From: a virus
DNA: 32,662 bases
Reading direction: 5' to 3' (one strand)
Virus record (IMG/VR): IMGVR_UViG_3300043775_002633
Coordinates: 1 to 32,662 of that record
Under the pieces are notes generated by a model. The model saw only the letters and a list, made by a program, of their open reading frames with translations, did not search any database and was not told the DNA's origin. A program made the translations under genes and the position numbers. Below are positions 22,299 through 32,662 of this stretch, piece by piece; positions within the stretch are counted from its first letter, which is position 1; every line of letters starts with the position of its first letter.

Positions 22299-22739
22299 AT
22301 GGCAAAAAAATTTGATAAACTAAATGACACGTTTAATGTTTCGGGTAAAATAATTTCTGCAAGCTCTGTAGAAAGTTCATTAGAATCTGAAATAGATAAA
22401 GTTTCATCCCCAATTAATGATATAAAAAAAGATTATGAATATACTAGAGGAAATTTATATTCATTGATTGAAAAAGGTCAAGAAGCAATCAATGGAATTT
22501 TAGAACTTGCACAAGAAAGTGAAATGCCAAGGGCATATGAAGTTGCTGGACAATTAATAAAAAGTGTAGCAGATGCAACAGACAAATTGATGGACCTTCA
22601 GAAAAAATTAAAAGATATTGAAGAAGAAAAAATAAGTAAAGGTCCAACCACCGTCAATAATGCACTTTTTGTTGGATCAACTGCAGATTTGGCAAAATTT
22701 TTAAAACAACAATCTCAAGGAAATGATGAAAACATTTAG
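22299..22739 (+). CDS. gp16: Terminase small subunit gp16
   Basis: The small terminase recognises concatemeric DNA and stimulates the gp17 motor. I choose the ATG at 22299 (MAKKFDKLNDTFN, 146 residues), four bases after the gp15 stop. An upstream in-frame ATG at 22251 would overlap gp15 by 44 bases and adds a sequence not expected for the family. The central part (DYEYTRGNLYSLIEKGQEAI, then LELAQESEMPRAYEVAGQLI) is helical and matches the coiled-coil oligomerisation core of T4-type gp16. The tail KGPTTVNNALFVGSTADLAK is characteristic of marine T4-like gp16. gp17 is not adjacent: two cationic genes lie between. Confidence 0.92.
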   Translation: MAKKFDKLNDTFNVSGKIISASSVESSLESEIDKVSSPINDIKKDYEYTRGNLYSLIEKGQEAINGILELAQESEMPRAYEVAGQLIKSVADATDKLMDLQKKLKDIEEEKISKGPTTVNNALFVGSTADLAKFLKQQSQGNDENI

Positions 22740-22860
22740 ACAGTTTCAAGAAGAGTGGAGTAATAAATATAAAAAGAGTATTAATTGCTCAAATCCAAAA
22801 GGATTTTCTCAACGTGCTTATTGTGCGGGAAGAAAAAGAGCAAAAAGTGAAAAAAATTAA
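22726..22860 (+). CDS. Small cationic protein with capsid-targeting-like start, 44 aa
   Basis: ATG at 22726, with an adjacent in-frame ATG at 22723; stop at 22858-22860. It overlaps the end of gp16 by 14-17 bases. The start MKTFRQFQEEW resembles the capsid-targeting sequence of T4 internal proteins IPI/IPII (MKTYQEFIAEA), which is removed by the prohead protease gp21 after Glu. The remainder holds a SINCSNPKGFSQRAYCAGRK block with two Cys and a strongly basic end (RKRAKSEKN), a short motif I recall from other marine phage proteins. It could therefore be a DNA-binding peptide packaged in the head. The gene is short, but its overlap, conserved-looking motifs and neighbours support it. The packaging role is inference. 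Confidence 0.7.
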   Translation: MKTFRQFQEEWSNKYKKSINCSNPKGFSQRAYCAGRKRAKSEKN

Positions 22861-29567: not shown

Positions 29568-31256
29568 ATGGCAAAGTTATTTGGATTTTCTATTGAAGAT
29601 AGTGAACCATTATCTCCGAGTGTAGTTTCTCCCGTTGCACCTAATAGTGAAGATGGGAGTGATTTTTATCTATCTAGTGGATTTTTTGGATCATACGTAG
29701 ATATTGAAGGCGTTTATAGAACCGAATTTGATTTAATTAAAAGATATCGTGAAATGTCGCTTCATCCAGAGTGTGATAGCGCCATTGAGGATATTGTTAA
29801 CGAAGCAATTGTAAGTGACACTAATGATAGTCCAGTATCAATTGAACTATCAAATTTGAATGCAAGTGATGCGATAAAGAAAAAAATTAGAGATGAATTT
29901 AGATATATTTTAGAACTATTGGATTTTGATAGAAAATCTCACGAAATCTACAGAAATTGGTATGTTGATGGAAGACTCTACTATCATAAAGTAATTGATT
30001 TAAAAAACCCACACGAAGGAATTAAAGAACTTCGTTACATAGATGCAATGAAAATGCGTTATGTGCGTCAACAAAGACAAACGGAAAAGGATAAAAAAAT
30101 TTATAGATTAGCGAATGTAAATATTGATGATCCAATGTCTTATGAATTTCCAGAAATTGAGGAATATTACGTTTATAATCCAAAAATGACTTATCCAACA
30201 ACCAACCCATCTTCTTTGGGTGGAACTGGAGGCATTAAGTTTTCAAAAGACTCTATTACATACTGTACTTCAGGTCTTGTAGATAGAAACAAAGGTTCAA
30301 CTCTTTCATATCTACACAAAGCAATTAAATCCCTCAATCAACTTCGTATGATTGAAGATAGTCTCGTCATTTATAGATTGTCTCGTGCTCCAGAAAGAAG
30401 AATTTTTTATATTGATGTTGGAAATCTACCAAAAGTAAAAGCAGAGCAATATCTCCGTGATGTAATGATGCGTTATAGAAATAAGATGGTCTATGACGCA
30501 AACACTGGAGAAATTCGTGACGATAAAAAATTTATGGCAATGCTTGAAGATTTTTGGCTTCCAAGAAGAGAAGGTGGTAGAGGCACTGAAATTTCCACTC
30601 TTCCTGGAGGACAAAATCTTGGAGAAATTACAGATATTGAATATTTTAAGAAAAAACTCTATCGTTCATTGAATGTTCCCCCATCAAGAATGGATGGAGA
30701 AGGTGGATTTAATCTTGGTCGTTCATCTGAAATTCTTCGTGATGAAGTTAAATTCAGTAAATTCGTTGCACGTTTAAGAAAAAGATTTTCTTATATGTTC
30801 AATGATATGTTAAAGACACAATTGATTTTAAAGAATATCATTACTCCAGAAGATTGGGAGATGATGGATGAACATATTCAGTATGATTTTCTTTATGATA
30901 ATCATTTTGCAGAACTTAAAGATGCTGAACTTTTAAATGAGAGATTGAGTATGGTTCAAGTTGCAGAACCATATGTCGGAAAATATTTTTCTCAAGATTA
31001 TGTGAGAAGAAAAATTCTTCGTCAAACTGATGAAGAAATTGTTGAGCAAGATAAAATTATTAAGAAAGAAATTAAAGATGGGGTGATTCCGGATCCAAAT
31101 GTTCCGGTAGATCCAACAACAGGAATGCCTTTAGGACCAGAAACATCACAGATGGATTTAGGTAAGCCAGTGATGGAGCCAAATCTTGATGCTGATGGTG
31201 CTGCAACAGAAGTAAATGCAAAAGTTGCAGAAATGCCCAAGGGTGGAGAGATATAA
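29568..31256 (+). CDS. gp20: Portal vertex protein gp20
   Basis: Dodecameric ring at one capsid vertex. It nucleates prohead assembly and is the channel for gp17-driven packaging. Recognisable T4-type portal segments are GVYRTEFDLIKRYREMSLHP with ECDSAIEDIVNEAIV (residues about 45-80), NWYVDGRLYYHKVIDLKNPH, RMIEDSLVIYRLSRAPERRI, and MAMLEDFWLPRREGGRGTEI with TLPGGQNLGEI. The C-terminal part has PPSRMDGEGGFNLGRSSEIL. Length of 562 is close to T4's 524; the excess is mostly the acidic Pro-rich tail after residue 490. The gene has its own late-promoter-like box. Its TAA lies inside a perfect TATAAATA box for the next gene. Confidence 0.97.
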   Translation: MAKLFGFSIEDSEPLSPSVVSPVAPNSEDGSDFYLSSGFFGSYVDIEGVYRTEFDLIKRYREMSLHPECDSAIEDIVNEAIVSDTNDSPVSIELSNLNASDAIKKKIRDEFRYILELLDFDRKSHEIYRNWYVDGRLYYHKVIDLKNPHEGIKELRYIDAMKMRYVRQQRQTEKDKKIYRLANVNIDDPMSYEFPEIEEYYVYNPKMTYPTTNPSSLGGTGGIKFSKDSITYCTSGLVDRNKGSTLSYLHKAIKSLNQLRMIEDSLVIYRLSRAPERRIFYIDVGNLPKVKAEQYLRDVMMRYRNKMVYDANTGEIRDDKKFMAMLEDFWLPRREGGRGTEISTLPGGQNLGEITDIEYFKKKLYRSLNVPPSRMDGEGGFNLGRSSEILRDEVKFSKFVARLRKRFSYMFNDMLKTQLILKNIITPEDWEMMDEHIQYDFLYDNHFAELKDAELLNERLSMVQVAEPYVGKYFSQDYVRRKILRQTDEEIVEQDKIIKKEIKDGVIPDPNVPVDPTTGMPLGPETSQMDLGKPVMEPNLDADGAATEVNAKVAEMPKGGEI

Positions 31257-31286: not shown

Positions 31287-31463
31287 ATGGATGATCTTCT
31301 GGATATGATTGTTGCTGACGAATCACCGTCTCAAGTAAGTGATAAGATTAAAGAGCTTCTTTTTGCAAAGTCTGCAGAAAAAATTGATTCTTTTAGACCA
31401 GCAGTAGCAAATTCTATGTTTGATGTTGCAGATGAATATACATATGCAGATGAGGAAGAGTGA
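31287..31463 (+). CDS. Small acidic prohead core-like protein (gp67 position), 58 aa
   Basis: ATG at 31287, TGA at 31461-31463. The product starts MDDLLDMIVADESPSQVSDK, has a KELLFAKSAEKIDSFRPAVA middle and an acidic end (DEYTYADEEE). In T4 the gene directly after gp20 is 67, a small acidic prohead core component cleaved by gp21. Position, size and the acidic tail suit that role, and short proteins with a similar LLDMI.ADESPS...IKELLF.K.AEK pattern follow gp20 in marine T4-like phages. Direct similarity to T4 gp67 is not obvious to me, so I leave the symbol empty. It precedes the charged protein gene by three bases. Confidence 0.75.
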   Translation: MDDLLDMIVADESPSQVSDKIKELLFAKSAEKIDSFRPAVANSMFDVADEYTYADEEE

Positions 31464-31466
31464 TAG

Positions 31467-32375
31467 GTGGATGATTTTGGAGTTAAAATAGATTTATCAG
31501 ACTTTTTTTCTTCTATAAGTAACGAGAAGAAAAAGAAAAAGGAAGAATTTAACTCAATTGTTGGTGAATTAAATTTAAATATTATCTTTGAAGAAGTAAC
31601 TACTTTAAAAAAGAAAAATAAAATTAAAAAAAAGAAAGAAGAAAAGACTCTTGAATCTTTTGAAAATTGGTTGTATTCCACTAATGTAAAAGAACAACCA
31701 ATAGAGGAAGTTCAAGAAATTGTAGAAGAAGTCATTGAAGAAGTTCAGGAAATAGTAGACAATATAGTAGAGGAAAAAAAAGAAGGATCGACATTAATTG
31801 AAAAATCTTTAGGGATTCTTTCAGAACCTTCAAATACTAAAGTTCAAAATGATCCACTTACACCTTTGGATCAAAAGTTTGCAACACTTGACGATCTTCA
31901 AAAGCATTACAACTTATTCATAACAAGAATTCAACAACAACTTTCCACATTAGGTGGAAGTGGCGAAACTCATCTTGAGTTCCTTGATGATGTTGACAGA
32001 GATAGTGTAAAAAGAGACAATTATTTTCTCAAATACGATGCATCGATAAACAAATGGGTTGGTGATGATGGTGGTGGGGTTGGTATTACCAGCATTGTAT
32101 TCATAACTGGAGTTACTACCTATTATGCTGCAACAAGAGATGTTGATTATATTGGAGTCAGTGCTGATGTTCCAGTCACAATTGATTTACCAACTAACGC
32201 AGATCCAGGAAAACAAATTATTATAAAAGATGAGGGTAATAAAATATCTACATATAATATCACAGTTCGTGCTGGTATTGGGGCGAGTGTTGAAAATGAC
32301 ACTTCAGTTCTGATGAAAATCAATCACGAAAGTTTTACTTATTTTTACAATGGATATAACTGGTATATAATCTAA
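31467..32375 (+). CDS. Charged/coiled-coil virion protein with fibre-like C-terminal domain
   Basis: It starts at GTG 31467: an in-frame TAG sits immediately upstream and no usable ATG exists in the frame until near the end. A purine-rich GAGGAAGAG at 31452-31460 can serve as ribosome-binding site. Residues 1-75 are extremely Lys/Glu-rich (DLSDFFSSISNEKKKKKEEF). Residues 80-101 are two 11-residue EEVQEIV repeats. Residues about 135-170 hold KFATLDDLQKHYNLFITRIQ with QQLSTLGGSGE, a segment I recall from marine T4-like virion proteins. The end (YYAATRDVDYIGV, then TIDLPTNADPGKQIIIKDEG and FYNGYNWYII) is a phage fibre-type beta domain. Function unknown; it could be a core or scaffold-linked fibre or head decoration. 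Its stop overlaps the next ATG (TAATG). Confidence 0.78.
   Translation: MDDFGVKIDLSDFFSSISNEKKKKKEEFNSIVGELNLNIIFEEVTTLKKKNKIKKKKEEKTLESFENWLYSTNVKEQPIEEVQEIVEEVIEEVQEIVDNIVEEKKEGSTLIEKSLGILSEPSNTKVQNDPLTPLDQKFATLDDLQKHYNLFITRIQQQLSTLGGSGETHLEFLDDVDRDSVKRDNYFLKYDASINKWVGDDGGGVGITSIVFITGVTTYYAATRDVDYIGVSADVPVTIDLPTNADPGKQIIIKDEGNKISTYNITVRAGIGASVENDTSVLMKINHESFTYFYNGYNWYII
31704..31769 (+). repeat. Tandem 33-base (11-residue) repeat, two copies
   Basis: Copy 1 (31704-31736) codes EEVQEIVEEVI; copy 2 (31737-31769) codes EEVQEIVDNIV. The 11-residue period is a hendecad, the unit of right-handed coiled coils. The following EEKKE begins like a third copy but then departs. Confidence 0.85.
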
Positions 32376-32662
32376 TGTCTTTTAATCCCCTTCCACAACC
32401 AGCAACCGCAGTAGTTCTTACAGGCATATCTACTACACCAGTTTCTTTTGATAACCCATTTCCAGTATCTCTTGGAAGTTCAAATATTACAATTAATGGT
32501 GATGTGAGTATTGGAGCAACTGTGAATGTTGCAAGTTCCCCAGCAAATCCAGTCCATACTCATATCACCGAAGTTGGAACAACTGATATTCTAACTGTTC
32601 CTTATATGCCTGTTGGTATTGGGACTAATAATTTAAATCTCACATATCTTCCTGTTGGTATT
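32375..32662 (+). CDS. Beta-rich virion protein, 3' end missing
   Basis: ATG at 32375 overlaps the preceding TAA (TAATG), and the frame stays open for 96 codons to the window end. It starts MSFNPLPQPATAVVLTGIST, with FDNPFPVSLGSS and ITINGDVSIGATVNVAS. A YMPVGIGTNNLNLTY stretch is followed by a second LPVGI at the window edge, suggesting a short repeat. The composition (Val, Thr, Gly, Asn, Ile) is that of an exposed fibre or decoration protein. Coupling with the upstream charged protein suggests the two act together. No homologue is firmly recognised. Confidence 0.65.
   Translation, partial: MSFNPLPQPATAVVLTGISTTPVSFDNPFPVSLGSSNITINGDVSIGATVNVASSPANPVHTHITEVGTTDILTVPYMPVGIGTNNLNLTYLPVGI

Follow-up and report, generated by a model that had tools for sequence, protein, structure and literature searches.

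The window analysed here is the whole of IMG/VR virus record IMGVR_UViG_3300043775_002633 (32,662 bases), in which exactly one fibre neck was found. It lies in a 302-residue protein whose gene comes after the portal gene and a short ORF in the position of gp67, and is itself overlapped by the start of a gene that we call Y. The genes and signals at the locus are as follows.

29568–31256, + strand: portal protein gp20 (phrog_213, E 3.9e-227; Pfam PF07230, E 2.5e-193)
31287–31463, + strand: 58-aa ORF in the gp67 position (phrog_14164, E 9.7e-26; homology to T4 gp67 weak)
31452–31460, + strand: probable ribosome-binding site, purine-rich GAGGAAGAG, read from the sequence 7–15 nt upstream of the GTG
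31467–32375, + strand: candidate fibre-base gene, 302 aa, GTG start
32375–32662, + strand: start of protein Y (MSFNPLPQP...), overlapping the fibre-base stop codon by one base and cut by the window end

The frame comprises 302 codons and a stop, as the initial annotation of a GTG-started, 302-residue protein had it. The GTG is the sole usable start, because a TAG stop codon lies immediately 5' of it and the next in-frame candidates are TTG at codon 69, TTG at codon 134 and ATG at codon 283; the idea that the GTG goes unused and the C-terminal domain alone is made can thus be set aside. A GTG followed by a VDDFG/VDDLG beginning is kept in 13 of 41 extracted proteins, the window protein counted in. 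The sole profile common to the 58-aa ORF and T4 gp67 is phrog_683 (E 0.025 and E 0.0011, respectively). Searches with the 302-aa protein gave no Pfam match above the cut-off and found no solved structure by sequence (best E 1.3). Relatives, encoded at 40 loci in viral contigs in the initial search, divide the protein into five segments.

31467–31691, + strand: anchor segment, residues 1–75, repeated DFF-type motifs and Lys/Glu runs, with an equivalent segment in 40 of 40 relatives
31692–31802, + strand: Glu/Val/Ile coil, residues 76–112, a helix in the model, containing an 11-residue repeat (76–97)
31803–31976, + strand: conserved neck, residues 113–170, EPS..DPLTPLDQ.FATL..L..HY..F..RIQQQLST.GG.GE, 88% mean column identity
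31977–32063, + strand: LDD linker, residues 171–199, LEFLDDVDR..DNYFLKYDASINKWVG, common to long cyanophage fibres
32064–32372, + strand: tip of type 0a, residues 200–302, predicted XD1-fold adaptor domain (from VIA alignment of the model)

Column identities were computed on an alignment of 26 proteins, the window's included; besides the neck, they average 71% in residues 1–75, 58% in the coil (the least), 72% in the linker and 73% in the tip. The proposal that one protein unites a coil with a charged segment before it and a fibre-type domain behind it is thereby supported: the LDD motif corresponds to the virion-type motif that had been noted, the C-terminal beta domain is present, and relatives retain the N-terminal part. 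The first 75 residues, described earlier as nearly all Lys/Glu, contain 26 such residues (35%). What characterizes this segment is a short motif of the DLSDFF/LDSLF type, found in the window protein at residues 9–14 (DLSDFF) and 37–41 (LNIIF), of which 66 distinct relatives together have 137 copies (6.2 expected from shuffles), most of them two or three. Fibres that share the neck but are more distantly related start with KPSEYF or with LPSVEDFI, and LPSVEDFI occurs in them several times over. From their sequence and position, we infer that the DFF-type peptides may be docking peptides on the virion. The two 11-residue repeats reported for residues 76–97 are real (9 of 11 positions match in the protein and 25 of 33 in the DNA, and none of 5000 shuffles within residues 76–112 reached the score), and Tandem Repeats Finder, which listed A-rich short arrays only, did not report them. 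A lag-11 repeat of at least 7/11 is found in 8 of 72 distinct relatives and is absent in the other 64, so that the hendecad was rejected as a defining feature of the family.

The position of the gene had led to its being equated with T4 gp68, which it resembles in lying between gp67 and gp21 and in its charge. The likeness ends there: T4 gp68 matches phrog_1049, phrog_14114 and phrog_3503, none of which is matched by the window protein at E ≤ 1, whereas the window protein has a fibre neck and tip and its residues 9–217 (anchor, neck and linker) match the ‘tail fiber protein’ profile phrog_30742 (E 1.7e-24). The relationship with gp68 was rejected on this negative profile test. The same fibre profile is matched by the proteins of loci L032, L037, L080, L115 and L039. 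According to a section of one review, gp67 and gp68 are absent from all cyanophage genomes (PMC2984593).

In the window, the upstream side of the gp67–gp21 interval is seen, and the sequence ends before gp21 is reached; among close relatives, for example at L005, the fibre gene is followed by Y, then a DUF7243 gene, then gp21. In S-PM2, P-SSM2, S-CAM7 and Syn1, the ORF in the gp67 position has gp21 as its immediate downstream neighbour, while the gap is filled by different small proteins in S-SM2, S-B05, S-SCSM1 and S-SKS1 and by a differing protein in B23, and its gene content marks it as an insertion spot. Both the empty and the variously filled gaps would suit an unremarkable accessory gene that evolves fast and plays no part in adsorption, for example one for a minor decoration protein. 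We consider this highly improbable, given that the neck is conserved, that the pairing with Y described below is conserved and that the tips include types typical of fibres (collagen-like and BclA_C-like). As a separate observation, the DUF7243/phrog_682 protein (∼182 aa) lies directly before gp21 in many of these viruses (L005 7548–8096 and equivalents), and apparently also in S-B05 and B23.

A profile search with the neck retrieved at least 551 relatives in viral contigs, of which 80 were kept, against tblastn matches in 20 of 50,697 phage records; the neck family is therefore mainly uncultured. The same neck is found in the long fibres of S-SKS1, B23, S-H68 and SynMITS9220M01; in long fibres, it comes after a shaft of 300–500 aa. 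Exactly one neck was present in each of 23 large contigs, the largest measuring 248 kb. A separate search found a second neck (44% identical, in a 723-aa frame) in one of 20 records, the contig of L010, and one fibre per genome is therefore not universal.

The gene is not confined to the head operon. Among 109 parsed fibres (a set that leaves out L085, whose neck was not parsed, and five re-fetched duplicates), 55 lie between gp67 and gp21, 33 between gp16 and gp17, 9 near psbA and 12 elsewhere or at an undetermined place. These labels are rule-based (L033 was assigned to gp16–gp17 solely through a fragmentary neighbour match), and since several loci are near-identical contigs (e.g. L013–L018), the locus counts are not counts of independent events. 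The best anchor-neck tree shows no fewer than 7 exchanges between the two main slots. In the gp16–gp17 slot, locus L002 encodes a protein ∼91% identical to that of the window, and the neighbouring genes are 66–87% identical to the window's (gp13 87%, gp14 68%, gp15 78%, gp16 81%, next gene 66%), which is consistent with recent movement of the fibre gene. Two further contigs deserve mention on their own account: L123 (3047–4690) has the order gp67-fibre-Y-gp17 and L124 the order gp67-fibre-Y-DUF7243-gp21, and the two are 99.4% identical over 3041 bp before L123 departs, which may reflect recombination between the slots or an assembly chimera.

Since the gene is found in either slot, its place in the head operon is no guide to where the protein attaches. 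The earlier picture of a prohead anchor with an exposed fibre-like end rested on gene position, and the 33 of 109 copies at gp16–gp17 take away its support. In a more explicit version, the charged N-terminal part would join the prohead core and be removed by the gp21 protease, leaving a fibre attached to the head or portal. Besides the 55 copies between gp67 and gp21, this scheme draws on a capsid spike of Pseudomonas phage Pa223 with the same C-terminal fold (Z 9.6) and on the gp21 cleavage rule, L/I-X-E as given in one paper (PMC9026906): in 94 of 109 fibres, a gp21-type [LIV]xE immediately precedes the neck, by a pattern that requires a following proline. That proline (P121) is, however, invariant in 26 of 26 aligned proteins, 10 of 108 parsed necks have a residue other than Glu there (some of the ten being mis-parsed), and [LI]xE is not clearly enriched in residues 1–120 (7 versus 4.4 by shuffle, fraction 0.12). 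Moreover, cleavage before the neck would discard the 300–500-aa shaft of the long fibres, and no gp68 profile is matched. We therefore judge a prohead-linked protein to be quite unlikely.

Behind the neck, the C-terminal domain is exchanged. At E 1e-4, at least 9 tip groups follow the neck, among them collagen-like repeats (L115–L117) and a BclA_C-like tip (L037, under the Pfam cut-off). The proteins of L003 and L029 are 97% identical in the anchor, 91% in the coil and 95% in the neck versus 27% in the tip, and the tip type changes 19 times on an anchor-neck tree of 76 rows (reduced from 92 by dropping long-anchor rows and duplicates). All trees were quick searches with few strongly supported branches.

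An AlphaFold2 monomer model of the base was poor outside the tip (mean pLDDT 54), and its tip was usable (pLDDT about 75). With VIA-align, model residues 206–302 superimpose on residues 78–175 of CBA120 TSP4 (Z 12.0, rmsd 2.3, 94 residues), and the tip model also aligns to T4 gp10 (Z 10.4), T4 gp9 (Z 9.8), a CpaA complex (Z 9.5) and a StcE domain (Z 7.3). The window tip is thus predicted to have the XD1 fold of T4 gp9/gp10 and CBA120 TSP4. One account of TSP4 places its XD1 domain behind an anchor some eighty residues long and names gp9, gp10, CpaA and StcE as relatives; XD1 is described there as not fully understood in function and possibly a spacer, XD2 and XD3 as binding partners, and the XD1 fold as glycan-binding in CpaA and StcE (PMC8825819). 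XD2 and XD3 are absent from the window protein, whose C-terminal end is the XD1 domain.

The tip type predicts how the next protein begins. Two XD1-like tips can be told apart, 0a (that of the window, with a ...FYNGxNW-like end) and 0b (ending ...NGWRVV; no tblastn match among 50,697 phage records), and the start of Y lies no more than a few bases from the fibre stop codon. Pairing was scored at 80 of 109 loci, the other 29 being dropped for want of a closed end and at least 150 nt of following sequence. At 43 of 43 loci with tip 0a, the next gene encoded a Y that starts MS[YFH]NPxP[QD]P, and at 18 of 18 with tip 0b a Y that starts MSHLY (61 of 61 combined); neither N-terminus occurred within 1500 nt downstream, or up to the contig end, of 19 of 19 other tips. 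At 6 of the 61 paired loci, the adaptor is off the fibre, as a separate ORF of ∼130 aa beginning MAINFPNSP directly before Y, and the rule still holds. Such stand-alone adaptors, seen for instance at L032 (7799–8185) and L061 (2942–3337) as MAINFPNSP...WNGVQW next to a fibre with another tip, also occur directly before Y at the held-out loci L197, L198 and L224.

The held-out loci were fetched with a profile of each adaptor, and 57 of 157 were dropped because earlier loci already covered them; for each type, three left no room downstream. Where there was room, MSHLY came next after tip 0b in 65 of 65 cases and NPxPQP directly next after tip 0a in 28 of 29, giving 93 of 94 direct pairings in loci that are often closely related (50 distinct fibres for 0b and 25 for 0a). 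At the 29th 0a locus (L287), MSYNPLPQP comes at +690, behind an intervening ORF for a GIY-YIG-type endonuclease. An endonuclease ORF of this type (216 aa) sits exactly between the fibre gene and Y at L023, L103 and L287.

Beyond its first residues, Y does not follow the adaptor. All four Y-body clusters (50% identity) that have two or more members are found under both adaptor types (0b/0a counts of 34/11, 32/3, 3/12 and 6/3, leaving out Y proteins that are cut off or shorter than 300 aa), and identity between Y bodies with different N-termini reaches 80% across 395 residues. On the Y-body tree, which leaves out exact duplicates and in which four unrelated Y bodies form long branches, the adaptor type changes 9 times, at least 6 of these being forced by starred branches; on the anchor tree, it switches 9 times, with only 2 independent pairs on starred branches.

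Full copies of Y match phrog_1645 (virion structural protein; PHROGs category head and packaging), and Y is present in 177 of 50,697 phage records. In a model of Y (pLDDT 81, pTM 0.79), residues 25–241 align to GH16 beta-glucanases at Z about 17 (17.4 to one), and Foldseek matches also include legume-type lectins. Y would accordingly have an all-beta fold of the lectin/GH16 type, and a sugar-binding role is suggested by that fold. Y bodies such as that at L026 (6885–8102) carry a conserved DIEWLG stretch on the GH16-like fold that brings to mind the active-site motif of GH16 enzymes, although the first catalytic Glu appears to be missing; Y is possibly an inactive glucanase fold.

A third pairing was also seen. 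A Y beginning MAQWN is directly preceded by a protein of 102–109 aa, here termed X, in S-SRM01, S-RIM8, S-CREM1 and S-H38, that is, in all four of the cyanophage isolates examined, as well as in one contig (that of L084). In this contig, X and the MAQWN-type Y occupy the gp67–gp21 slot and a one-piece fibre the gp16–gp17 slot. Puniceispirillum phage HMO-2011 has a Y with yet another N-terminus and another neighbour, and when one Y body was searched in 14 large contigs, 6 matched, the non-matches including L005, whose Y body is unrelated. The N-terminal peptide of X resembles T4 capsid-targeting peptides, which hints at a link to head assembly. X is one of a series of small ORFs that begin with an MK[TS][FY]xxF[ILQ]xE-like sequence containing a gp21-type [LI]xE. 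Those in the gp16–gp17 interval were found at 22726–22860 of the window and at L290 3575, L291 3557, L293 3542, L294 3560 and L033 3119; their N-termini, too, resemble T4 capsid-targeting sequences, and these ORFs may mark internal head proteins of cyanophages.

The pairing could be read differently. If the window protein were a one-piece receptor-binding fibre, with the XD1 tip itself binding a host glycan, then Y would be an independent neighbour that tracks the tip as one recombination block. The glycan-binding XD1 folds of StcE and CpaA (Z 7.3 and, for the CpaA complex, 9.5), as described in part of the TSP4 account (PMC8825819), would fit such a role, and the tip/Y junction has no homology through which recombination could part the two, so that the match may be passive linkage. 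Pure linkage is disfavoured because adaptor ORFs are kept separately before Y when the fibre has gained another tip, because no adjoining Y is found without an adaptor (19 of 19 other tips lack such a Y downstream) and because a third partner, X, goes with a third N-terminus. A one-piece fibre is for these reasons unlikely.

Taken together, these data make it probable that the window protein is the anchor-shaft-adaptor base of a two-piece surface fibre that carries Y in a T4-like marine cyanophage, its gene being a fibre gene inserted in the head operon and no relative of gp68. In such a structure, (i) the short, repeated DFF-type peptides at the N-terminus would dock the base on the virion; (ii) the coil of variable length and the conserved neck would form a trimeric shaft, as helix prediction and homology to long fibres suggest; (iii) the C-terminal domain, of XD1 fold in the model, would serve as an adaptor that holds the N-terminal peptide of Y; and (iv) Y, encoded by the next, one-base-overlapping gene, would contact host sugars, as expected from its fold. 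The base would thus be exposed on the virion as a trimer, with its XD1 tip binding the N-terminus of Y. Relatives would have replaced the unit of adaptor and Y by long fused tips, yielding one-piece fibres, with the gene in either of the two operon slots.

We tentatively extend this reading, with rather less confidence than an even chance would warrant, to a plug-and-socket mode of adsorption in uncultured cyanophages. One lectin/GH16-fold Y would fit at least three bases (XD1 0a, XD1 0b and X) by exchanging its N-terminal plug alone, and the cassette of base and Y would hop between two slots and constitute a missing equivalent of gp10, gp12 or whiskers in T4-like cyanophages. According to part of a review, these phages are without recognizable wac, g10, g11, g12, g34, g35 and g37, and unknown substitutes are expected (PMC2984593). 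A base with a gp9/gp10-type domain and a lectin-fold partner is a concrete and testable candidate for such a substitute. The strict match between tip and partner N-terminus predicts which proteins bind each other, and thereby offers a simple sequence rule for reading the host-recognition cassettes of uncultured cyanophages. A literature search by title and start of abstract, with most subscription journals outside its scope, found no description of this gene arrangement.

Among known systems, the nearest in sequence are the long fibres of cyanophages (S-SKS1 SWZG_00030, B23 gp272, S-H68/S-B05 and SynMITS9220M01_093), which are 42–58% identical in neck and LDD linker and have a short aromatic N-terminal motif in common with the window protein; B23 gp272 even occupies the same operon slot, behind the portal gene and the gp67-position ORF. 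They differ in their longer coils and longer fused tips, and no adjoining XD1 tip or Y was seen with them. At the level of fold, the predicted XD1 domain of the window protein is shared with CBA120 TSP4 and T4 gp10 and gp9 (Z 9.8–12.0), yet it stands at the C-terminal end, without the XD2/XD3 jelly rolls, behind a different anchor and with a partner of lectin/GH16 fold. The window protein would work like the base of a branched tailspike complex, which carries a second spike protein. The Pa223 capsid spike (PDB 9ny6), on which our literature search found no publication, is a 294-residue chain with the fold of the window tip at its C-terminus (90 residues aligned at Z 9.6 and rmsd 2.9, with 9% identity).

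With T4 fibritin (wac), the window protein shares the plan of a conserved N-terminal attachment part, a coiled shaft and swapped-in alien C-terminal domains, as described in part of a study of that protein (PMC3797505). Swapped C-terminal domains on a conserved base indeed occur in the window family, and profile searches (as distinct from a direct comparison) gave no fibritin-named family among the PHROGs and Pfam matches of the window protein. In fibritin, swapping has ceased according to the same part of that study (PMC3797505), whereas in the window family it is recent, with 97% versus 27% identity in close relatives. The window protein may thus work like fibritin and the bases of branched tailspikes, a comparison that we draw as likeness and not as membership in either group. 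Modular phage fibres are already known, and the window system is a new variant of them.
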